In this document: positions 4,644 through 60,316 of the stretch, in pieces | How positions within the stretch are numbered: the stretch's first letter is position 1 | Layout: every line of letters begins with the position of its first letter | Source: Cristatella mucedo | Taxonomy: Eukaryota; Bryozoa; Phylactolaemata; Cristatellidae | NCBI GenBank assembly: GCA_009760855.2 | Contig: WPIO01000061.1 | Coordinates: 62,001-126,000, forward strand | Direction: 5' to 3' | DNA length: 64,000 bases | The notes under the pieces: generated by a model | Seen by the model: the letters and a program-made list of their open reading frames with translations, nothing else | Database searches by the model: none | What the model was told of the DNA's origin: nothing | Translations under genes and position numbers: made by a program

Positions 4644-4822
4644 ATGGCGCCGCCGCCGCCGCCGCGCGGCCGCTCCGTCCTCATCGTTGCCGCCGTTGCC
4701 CTCGCTGCGAGCTTCGCGCCAGCGCGAGCGCTGGTTATCTTGAGGCAACTCGGGCCGTGCAGCGTGGAGACCGACCGCGGCACGGTCGACTTGTCCGCTC
4801 TGAGCCGGGGCAGTCCACCGAG
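4644..4822 (+). CDS. Gene 1 exon 1: signal peptide and first MRH cysteine
   Basis: ATG at 4644 is the first ATG in this frame, although the frame stays open upstream. It encodes MAPPPPPRGR, a hydrophobic alanine/valine core and a cleavage-like APARA. RQLGPCSVETDRGTVDLSAL then opens the MRH domain. It ends AG|GTATGC, phase 2. The homologous exons at 35113 and 60129 share QLGPCSV-TD-G--DL. Confidence 0.87.
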
Positions 4823-7800
4823 GTATGCGAGAGTCGCCAAGCGTCGCTGTTGGAGCGCGGCGCGCGATGGCTGTGCGGAGCAGCTTCAAGATCAATCGCT
4901 GATTGAGAGCCCTCGCGTCTTGTGCGAAAACGTTTCGAGCTCTCTCTCTCTCTCTCTCGCTCACTCACTCACTCACTTACTCTCTCTCTCTCTCTCTCTC
5001 TCTCTCTCTCTCTCTCTCTCTCTCTCTCTTGGGTAAGCACATCCGTAGTTTGTAAATTTTATGCTAGTGCGAACGCACGAGAGTGCGAACTGAAATGCCA
5101 ACTACGAGCTAAGTAGGCTGCGCCGCGGACCACTTCCGCCGGCGCAGCGCCTTCGCTGTATGTCGCTGTGGCACCGCGGCAGCACCGACCTCTATTCGTT
5201 TCCCGAGCTATCACGGTAATGTATTAGCTGTTTCTCGGTCTTGCTTTGATTTTGATCACGGAGGGATGCACGGTTTTTCTCCCTTTGCTTCCCAGGCTTT
5301 TGGACTCACCGCCACAATTCGTACCGGAAGCCCTTAGCTCTCTTTAACCGCCGATTCCGGCACTCCATTCCCAACGACCCTTAGCTGCTACTTCTTCATA
5401 ATATCACCATTCAATGCAATTCTGCTATTCTATGCGCACTTTTGCAGCAACAAATGAAGACTATTGGCTGCCGAAGATAGACCAATAGTGCTAGTTAAGG
5501 TTCTCGCCTCGAACCAAGGTCAAGGTGAACGTAATTGATGACCATGCAAGAGATCTCAAGCACTGTGGCACATGTGATGCACCTGAATAGAGATTTAGTT
5601 CTCTTAGGGAATTGTATAAATAATTTATGCATATATATATATATATATATATATATATATATATATATATATATATATATATATATATATATATATATAT
5701 ATATATATACAGAAAATAATAATAGCCGCTTGGGCTTTGAATGCACGCTAGACAACTATCCAATGAGTGGTACCTTTGTAAGCTGCTCTGACACAAACAG
5801 AGCTGTACATTACCGCCTCTCCAACTCAAAAGATTGCTGAAAAAATTCACCGAGACCATTAAAAGTCGCGACACGATCATCAGCGGGAGCAGGTCATGTC
5901 GGTCATACAAAGTTGGCCGTTCTAAACGCATCTCCAGTCCTATAGTTTTTTAGCGTTTCTAGCGTACAGGAGCAGCACCTTAACCATCAGCATCAGCATG
6001 TGTAGTCATGCATACTAAATTTAGTGGTACACACTGCATGTAGCGGCACGTAAGCCCAGCAGACACTTCGGCTTGATCGCCGCTGCACCGTGCTATCGTA
6101 GCTGCGCCGGAAACGCTGACTAACGACAACTGCTTACTTCCTCGCTCGGCATGTTTAAAGATTTGCGAATACGACCAGCAATGCATACCCCGGCGTCGTT
6201 TACTACGATTGGAATCCGTGCAAGGACTTCAGTGAACCGGAAGTCGGGTCCGTTAAGAGCTGCCAGTCGATAGCGGTAAGGCTCAGAGGAGGCGGCGGCG
6301 GCGGCGGCGGCGGCGGCGGCGGCGGCGGCGGTGGCGGTGGCGGTGGCGGTGGCGGCGGCGGCGGCGGTGCCATTTTCCTCGATATGCTGCCGCCACCCGA
6401 GCATTCTTGCTCTTAGACGAAAGTTGAAATTAGAGCCTCGCTCTCGCGCACGCAGCTGAACTGATCGCTCGGCTAATCTCATCCTTTTTCTCGAACGGTT
6501 GCAAAGCTGACCCTCAACGGGGAGATTGATCACCAAAACGTGGACGTACCGATGCGCAGAGTGAGCGTCTCGGTGACCGCAGAGCCACCGGCTCGTCCAT
6601 TAATAGCGGAGAGAAGAACGAGGAGCGACCGTTTATTGCTAGCCAGAAATTTCGCTGATCGAATATCGATCGCCAAGGGCGTCGTCTGGAGGCTTGCTTA
6701 ATAGCTTTGCTACTGCGAAACATATTCTCGGAACGGGATTCCTAAGTTTGCTTTACTAGCCCTCCGTAGGCCGGAAAGCCTTACCAAGCAGGACCAAACG
6801 AGCGTCGTTTGCGAGATGTGAAATGAAAAGAGTTCCCTAGCCATCTGTTGACTCACTTCGGAGCAAATGCTCTCTATAATTGCAGAAGAAAGAGCGCCCG
6901 GTATCCGCTGGGCGGTACGATCGTTCTACGTTGCGTCGGTCGGTCTCGGTGTCCGAGGGTGGGTGCTACTTAAGCAGATAGACCAAGTGGCCTCGGTTTC
7001 AACATTTTTGATCTCTTTTCGAGCATAAGTATAGCGCATGATGAGAAGGAGCTTTCGTAACATTCAGTTGGCTGCGGGTCCAACTCGTGCGGGCTGCGCG
7101 CCATCTCAGCCAGATTGCGACCGCTGTCCATAATTCGCGGCTGCTGAATGATGGCGGCCATGAACATATTATGCGACAACCTATGGCGAAGGCAGCATGC
7201 AAGCCAAAGCTTTGCAACAGGGAGTCAGTTGTGCTCGGATAGTTGACCTTGGTCTTTGACCCGAGCAGCGCTCGAGACCGCCGAGCGCAGCTGCGGGAGT
7301 TTTCGCTCGCGTCGCGGCCTCTGTCGAATGGCAGCAACCTTCCGCCGCTGTCGTATAGACTTCTCTACGCTACGATACGGACTCGTTCTGTAGTAAAGGT
7401 AGGGGGCGCTCTTCGCCGCTGCCGCGAGTCCGCTACTGTCGGCTTATCTGCTCATGTATAGTCGCTCCGCCTGCGAGTCGCTAGGCGCATAGAAACACGA
7501 TTCAAGGGCATTCACCGCAAGTATGCATCGCAAGTGAGCCGAGGCTACTAGCGCCGTTAGGAGCACTGAATTTGCGGGCTATTTATGTCCGGACGCGGAA
7601 GCCGCTAAACCCCATTTGTAACACTACGTAAGTGACCTATTAGTGGATTTCCGCTCGTCACTTCCTCCTGGCGTCGCACCTTCGCCTGACCCGTCGAAAT
7701 CTAAAGCATAACTCAAAACGCACTTATTTATCGCAGCATTTAGTGAGTCAATGAGATTCATTGTACGTATGCTTATGCGTGCTGCCACAGTGCATGCTGC

Positions 7801-59635: not shown

Positions 59636-60128
59636 CAAAGCTGATCGTGTGTAACGTTACTTGGTAAAATAATCTTGCACCTTGCAAATAAGCGACCACA
59701 GTTACTACTCATTAATGCTAGCTAATAAGAAGCGGCAAGTTGCAACTTGTGCAGCGACTCGTGACGTAATGCGCCAGTCAGCCGAAAACTACCACCGCCT
59801 GCCAGGCTCTAATGCAACCTCGAATAACTGCTCGCCCTTGCGTTTTAGCAGCATTTCAAAAGCTAGGCGGTGCATCGGCAGGCAAGTGCGTCACTTCTGA
59901 GGATAAGTCGCGGCAACAGGTTAAGAAGACTTAGATTGTGACTTACCGGGGGCTTGCTTGCCAACTACAGCACCGGCAAGATGCGTTGGCTAATCTTATC
60001 ATGGCTGCCCGGCTGCCCCTAGAGTATCTCCACACTTCGCGTGATAGCGGCTACAGACGAGGAGCTCTCTCTAAGCCACCGCAGTCAGGAAATCTCGGCA
60101 CCGCCCTGTGCTTCCTTTTGAGTGCTGG

Positions 60129-60316
60129 ATGGCTACTCACCAGACGCTAGCGACCACGAGGGCGGCTGCTGCTGCGTGCTTGGTGCTCTCTCTGCTCAGC
60201 CGCTCACTGGGTGCTTCGGCGCTGCAGATCATCAAGCAGCTCGGCCCGTGCTCCGTCGATACGGACGCCGGCAGAGTGGACCTTGGCCCGCTCGGACTCG
60301 CCAACGGCGCGGCCAG
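60129..60316 (+). CDS. Gene 3 exon 1: M6PR-like MRH-domain receptor, partial
   Basis: ATG at 60129 gives MATHQTLATTRAAAAACLVLSLLSRS..., a signal peptide ending about SLGASA. LQIIKQLGPCSVDTDAGRVD then opens the MRH domain. It ends AG|GTAGGC, phase 2, as in genes 1 and 2. No YDWNPC exon is found between 60317 and 64000, so the rest lies beyond the window. Its QLGPCSV block is as close to gene 2 (KQLGPCSVETD) as to gene 1. The gene continues the head-to-tail array. If it has the same exon plan, its end may be 10-15 kb further right. Confidence 0.85.

Follow-up and report, generated by a model that had tools for sequence, protein, structure and literature searches.

Vertebrates have one CD-MPR and one CI-MPR for lysosomal enzyme sorting, and the tail of the CD-MPR has an acidic dileucine end. 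The sugar-binding residues of the CD-MPR are Gln66, Arg111, Glu133, and Tyr143, and its luminal residues Cys106 and Cys141 are paired. For the CI-MPR, four residues are described as essential for carbohydrate binding, and the relevant passage of PMC7481795 prints those of domain 9 as Gln, Arg, Glu, and Arg. In yeast, Atg27 is led to the vacuolar membrane by a tyrosine sorting motif within its short tail; it also has a retrieval signal and a role in autophagy and in Atg9 localization (passages of PMC8008255, including a title in its references). In addition, passages on the thyasirid deep-sea clam C. bisecta place a mannose-6-phosphate receptor among the expanded genes of that genome (PMC9993606). 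We found no description of an invertebrate or tandem M6PR/ATG27 family in the part of the literature that was searched.

The window analyzed here, a stretch of 64,000 nucleotides, corresponds to positions 62001-126000 of contig C570 in the Cristatella mucedo assembly (572 Mb, 688 contigs). An earlier note on this DNA had claimed that three genes on the same strand share a signal-peptide/QLGPCSV-TD exon and that two of these genes are complete, with seven exons, phases of 2,0,2,0,2,0, a 127-nt transmembrane exon, and a 63-nt last exon. Both claims were reproduced. Three plus-strand exons with QLGPCSV-TD started at window positions 4644, 35113, and 60129, and the window contained the complete seven-exon genes A and B and exon 1 of gene C. 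The introns of A and B were GT/AG introns with the same series of out-phases, and the lengths of the transmembrane and last exons were identical in the two genes. The joined proteins were longer than the 243 and 240 residues given in the note, namely, 261 residues for A and 248 residues for B. The exons, in window numbering, are as follows.

4644-4822, plus strand: gene A exon 1; signal-peptide-like start, RQLGPCSVETD; donor GT, phase 2
6161-6275, plus strand: gene A exon 2; YDWNPCKDF; AG/GT, phase 0
9307-9437, plus strand: gene A exon 3; YGNQASANF; AG/GT, phase 2
9651-9732, plus strand: gene A exon 4; TVVLQC; AG/GT, phase 0
14074-14162, plus strand: gene A exon 5; SSACY...ISIGTILC; AG/GT, phase 2
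21464-21590, plus strand: gene A exon 6, the transmembrane exon; 127 nt; AG/GT, phase 0
25091-25153, plus strand: gene A exon 7; 63 nt including the stop; end GFQQF
35113-35273, plus strand: gene B exon 1; signal-peptide-like start, KQLGPCSVETD
39057-39165, plus strand: gene B exon 2; YDWNPCFDF
45246-45361, plus strand: gene B exon 3; SGNQASAQF
45458-45536, plus strand: gene B exon 4; VVVLRC
48733-48824, plus strand: gene B exon 5; YAC...ISIGTILC
52453-52579, plus strand: gene B exon 6, the transmembrane exon; 127 nt
53797-53859, plus strand: gene B exon 7; 63 nt including the stop, YxxPhi end (GYQGV); picked from eight 63-nt candidates 3' of exon 6 by its likeness to gene A exon 7
60129-60316, plus strand: gene C exon 1; the other six exons lie outside the window at C570 132011-137359 (70011-75359 in window numbering)

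Exons 3 to 5 of A and B were found via a splice-aware pairwise search combined with a motif search; plain comparison of open reading frames (ORFs) yielded noise for the most part. The global alignment of proteins A and B scored 373, and the scores of 200 shuffles had a mean of -60 and a maximum of -14. Scans of the window for tRNAs and Rfam families were empty.

The introns and flanks of these genes contained mobile elements and simple repeats. A LINE-type reverse transcriptase ORF (PF00078, 48.5 bits) was located at 16584-16943 in intron 5 of gene A; the ORF that followed it (16934-17902) had no Pfam match, and none was found in the other eight window ORFs that were scanned. Stretches resembling a LINE-type element by eye were located at 28755-29300, 41194-41676, 58249-58824, and 61313-61807. 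The simple repeats around gene A were a CT-type array immediately 5' of the gene (3449-4150), a TA-type repeat in its intron 1 (5491-5949), and a GGC array directly 3' of its exon 2 (6290-6400). In gene B, intron 5 contained a TTTA-type array (49681-50241).

The earlier note had proposed extending the assembly both ways to count paralogues. We examined C570 from 2001 to 326000, which amounts to 324 kb without N in a contig of 2.5 Mb, and found that gene C is complete beyond the window and is followed by another complete gene and two partial copies, as listed below in C570 numbering.

122129-137359, same strand as A and B: gene C; 254 residues, seven exons, same phases, 127-nt membrane exon
141014-175238, same strand as A and B: gene D; 262 residues, seven exons, same phases, 127-nt membrane exon
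184971-191343, same strand: E, partial exon matches between D and F
From 199546, same strand: F, divergent; exon 1 match at E 0.0047-0.021
209927-210053, same strand: F membrane exon; 127 nt, E 6.6e-5
210194, same strand: F last exon; end PYSKM, found with a filter demanding an aromatic motif

The array A-F thus occupied about 144 kb on one strand, and the tandem array of at least three genes that had been claimed grew to at least four complete genes (A-D) plus E and F. In copy E, exon 5 was matched (E 2e-6), as were parts of exons 6 (E 1.5e-6) and 7 (E 0.0027), and stops were present directly upstream of the exon 6 match; E is probably a decayed copy or remnant. F was traced in part: an exon-3-like piece had an E value of 0.22-0.25, which was not significant alone, and exons 2, 4, and 5 of F were not identified. 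In the stretch examined, no match with E < 0.01 was found beyond either end of the A-F array (best value, 0.023).

The family was also found elsewhere in the genome, and the expansion that the note had described is real. Seven more membrane exons were located on five other contigs, namely, C122 (two, 25 kb apart), C111, C74 (two), C133, and C658, and a weak family match was located on C299 (E 0.41). Gene signatures consisting of an exon 1 and a membrane exon were present at two places outside the array.

C74 492938-500648: family gene signature, exon 1 plus membrane exon
C133 202877-234295: family gene signature, exon 1 plus membrane exon

The membrane exon was 127 nt long in 11 of the 12 copies in which both splice sites could be read and 124 nt long in the C658 copy, so this length appears to be an ancient feature shared across the family and not one special to A and B. 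In total, about thirteen family loci were found, including the probable remnant and loci known from single exons alone; this count is a lower bound from a search in which the best candidates alone were scored, mostly as single exons. Trees of short exons, in which the branch of F was very long, were left out as unreliable. A fragment alignment, A2, put short exons in the wrong places and was likewise set aside.

When A was compared with about 5.8 billion proteins, a sole homolog was returned: P0001, an ORF of 242 residues on a contig of 967 bases. Searches of protein databases with A, the alignment A1, and P0001 returned nothing besides P0001. A contig of this length leaves no room for introns as large as those of A and B, and P0001 therefore reads like a spliced message. 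P0001 was 69% identical to C and 65% identical to D, and no place in the genome matched it above 75%, so it comes either from another species or from a gene missing from the assembly. P0001 played no part in building the A and B models, but it was found with A as the query. When P0001 alone was compared with the window, 12 of the 15 exons were matched in a list of 13 rows running to E 10. Eight of these exons were matched at E < 0.03 and four at E 2-7, values that were not significant alone; the further row was noise, and exon 5 of A and the last exons of A and B were missed. In a tblastn search with P0001, seven exon matches were below E 0.036, the best value of five shuffled queries, and the match to B exon 6 (E 0.10) was worse than that value. 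Outside A, B, and C exon 1, the best match in the window to exon profiles made from P0001 and the two window proteins had an E value of 0.029. At the level of predicted sequences, the P0001 homolog supports the splicing of A and B.

The paralogues have diverged considerably. Proteins C and D were 65% identical, and the other five pairs among A-D were 35 to 42% identical (39% for A and B). In all six pairs, pN was lower than pS. Synonymous change was saturated in every pair except C-D, for which dN was 0.247, dS was 0.627, and dN/dS was about 0.39. Exon 1 of C and D (C570 122129-122316 and 141014-141210) had a dS of 0.24, compared with 0.63 overall and 0.45-1.40 in the other exons, and gene conversion of the first exon may account for this low value.

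Family membership was assessed with the profiles for ATG27 (PF09451, Pfam cut-off 27 bits) and Man-6-P_recep (PF02157, cut-off 25.4 bits). All five proteins were above the PF09451 cut-off, and the matches ran along most of the 261 profile positions: A, 27.4 bits (15-252); B, 35.2 bits (16-253); C, 40.8 bits (17-246); D, 45.3 bits (50-247); and P0001, 44.6 bits (17-253). In the case of PF02157, A (25.8 bits), C (55.0 bits), D (43.9 bits), and P0001 (56.4 bits) were above the cut-off, but B (20.1 bits) was below it, and the best stretches were within positions 134-235 of 254, the C-terminal part only. The M6PR likeness claimed in the earlier note was borne out, as homology to M6PR/ATG27, by PF09451 for each of A-D and by PF02157 for A, C, and D but not B. 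Protein A was just 0.4 bits above both cut-offs. Because PF02157 outscored PF09451 in C and P0001, the preference for ATG27 over M6PR is a matter of coverage and not of score.

In exon-by-exon searches of the genome with PF09451, the membrane exons of C, D, and F were matched on C570 at E 0.12-0.30, below the cut-off, and a match below the cut-off was likewise obtained in 1 of 14 control genomes; with PF02157, nothing on C570 was among the matches listed. The NCBIfam search returned nothing relevant, no PDB chain matched the family sequences below E 1, and hhalign of the family against the CD-MPR gave nothing significant. The single-sequence structure model of P0001, the one family member modeled, had a mean pLDDT of 41 and was not usable as a guide to the fold. 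PF00878 (CIMR) had no match in A-D or P0001. It did match an ORF on contig C155 (L034, 1381-2466) with 44.7 bits in two stretches, and a second ORF on C155 had no CIMR match. The matched ORF is a candidate for another MPR-type protein in this genome.

The predicted proteins shared a layout consisting of a signal-peptide-like exon (by eye), a cysteine-bearing luminal part, and one transmembrane exon, which contained a juxtamembrane (I/V)PNxxFW motif. In the membrane-exon peptide, Y8, G12, and W34 were identical in all 13 sequences compared, and P29 and N30 were identical in 12 of the 13. The cytosolic part had about 45 residues by eye, the final 20 to 23 of which came from the last exon. Among the seven last exons compared, a YxxPhi end was present in B (YQGV), C111 (YDSI), and F (YSKM), although F is a biased case because its last exon was picked by a filter demanding an aromatic motif, and A had an FxxPhi end (FQQF). 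The tails of C, D, and P0001 ended in GYES plus 1 to 3 residues and lacked a terminal hydrophobic residue at Tyr+3. In one C122 gene, the candidate last exon had no Tyr or aromatic sorting motif.

The sugar-binding positions were compared with those of the bovine CD-MPR (PDB 1keo), in which the residue positions were checked. Cysteine anchors were used because MAFFT set the first CD-MPR cysteine against the signal region; the two anchors were 28 to 29 residues apart in the family and 34 apart in the CD-MPR, so the placement is approximate. Six luminal cysteines and one cysteine at the membrane edge were common to A-D and P0001. Equivalents of Arg111, Tyr143, Cys106, and Cys141 were absent in all five proteins, and C94 and C100 (A numbering) were conserved in place of Cys106/Cys141 equivalents. 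In A, B, C, D, and P0001, respectively, the Arg111 site (8 residues before the fifth shared cysteine) was T, S, T, S, and S, and the Tyr143 site (10 residues before the sixth shared cysteine) was I, A, I, V, and L; no Arg or Tyr was located within two places on either side of these sites in any of the five. A Gln right after the third shared cysteine (CQS/CQT) was present in all five and may correspond to Gln66, and acidic residues located near the Glu133 position may likewise correspond to Glu133.

These residues bear on the glycan recognition that the earlier note had suggested, which was not upheld: equivalents of four CD-MPR residues were absent throughout, and ATG27 alone matched most of the protein. 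It is somewhat more probable than not that A-F belong to the ATG27/CD-MPR superfamily as a tandem, lineage-expanded set of type I proteins for endolysosomal sorting that act like Atg27 and do not bind mannose-6-phosphate. Under this proposal, the luminal part would fold as a reduced MRH barrel, adaptor complexes would read the cytosolic part, and the protein would cycle among the TGN, endosomes, and the lysosome. What the luminal part would carry or escort is a cargo or a protein partner and not M6P, much in the manner of Atg27; the paralogues would differ in cargo and tissue; and M6P recognition may be left to a CIMR-type protein encoded elsewhere in the genome. The specialized luminal sorting suggested by the note may also occur. 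A larger version of the proposal is speculative and rather doubtful: this animal lineage would have at least a dozen Atg27-type, non-M6P sorting receptors of its own, some of them in tandem. Each would accompany a separate cargo to lysosomes or autophagic membranes, and together they would form a repertoire parallel to the M6P system.

We also considered explanations in which the copies have another role or little role at all. The matches to MRH-superfamily profiles, the conserved Gln after the third cysteine, and the acidic residues near the Glu133 position would suit divergent lectins, in which the luminal domains bind non-M6P glycans via an MRH site that has been rearranged, with differing glycan specificities behind the expansion. 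This idea seems quite improbable given that the approximate two-cysteine alignment placed no Arg111, Tyr143, or Cys106/Cys141 equivalent in any of the five proteins and that the passage on the CI-MPR describes four residues as essential for carbohydrate binding (PMC7481795). It is also unlikely that the array is no more than what tandem duplication ordinarily leaves behind among abundant repeats, with redundant or decaying duplicates and little functional specialization. E looks decayed, F was traced in part, and LINE fragments and simple repeats are located within introns, but A-D are each open across seven exons with pN below pS, a C/D-type homolog that is 65 to 69% identical (P0001) exists outside this genome, and the 39% identity of A and B, together with their shared motifs, points to long maintenance. 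Finally, haplotypes or mis-joined copies might have been taken for paralogues in an assembly of 688 contigs that may be unphased. We regard such an artefact as extremely improbable because even the closest array pair, C and D, is just 65% identical in protein and the other five pairs are 35 to 42% identical, and because the 324 kb examined in the 2.5-Mb contig contain no N.

Atg27-like sorting proteins that do not bind M6P thus remain the explanation that we prefer. At least four intact tandem members without key sugar-binding residues suggest that animals kept and multiplied an Atg27-like, M6P-independent branch; if so, non-M6P lysosomal sorting and an animal counterpart of Atg27 become testable. 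Compared with M6PR (PF02157), the family is alike in that the end of the luminal part, the membrane exon, and the juxtamembrane stretch match the C-terminal part of the profile. The luminal end is alike as well (SSAC...SVGS in the human CD-MPR, a segment that the PDB confirms to about residue 154). In contrast to M6PR, the family lacks equivalents of Arg111, Tyr143, and Cys106/Cys141, and its short last exon has no acidic dileucine end. The CI-MPR (CIMR, PF00878) belongs to the same superfamily of MRH-type domains, but its profile is absent from A-D and has its separate match on C155. C. bisecta is another invertebrate genome with an MPR expansion, as recorded in passages of PMC9993606, so expansion as such is not unprecedented, although the clam genes may be of another type. 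Relative to yeast Atg27 (PF09451), the family differs in being an animal multigene tandem family and in the tails of C, D, and P0001, which have no terminal hydrophobic residue. It is like Atg27 in matching the profile along most of the protein, in its single pass through the membrane, in its short cytosolic part, and, in some members, in its C-terminal tyrosine-type motif.
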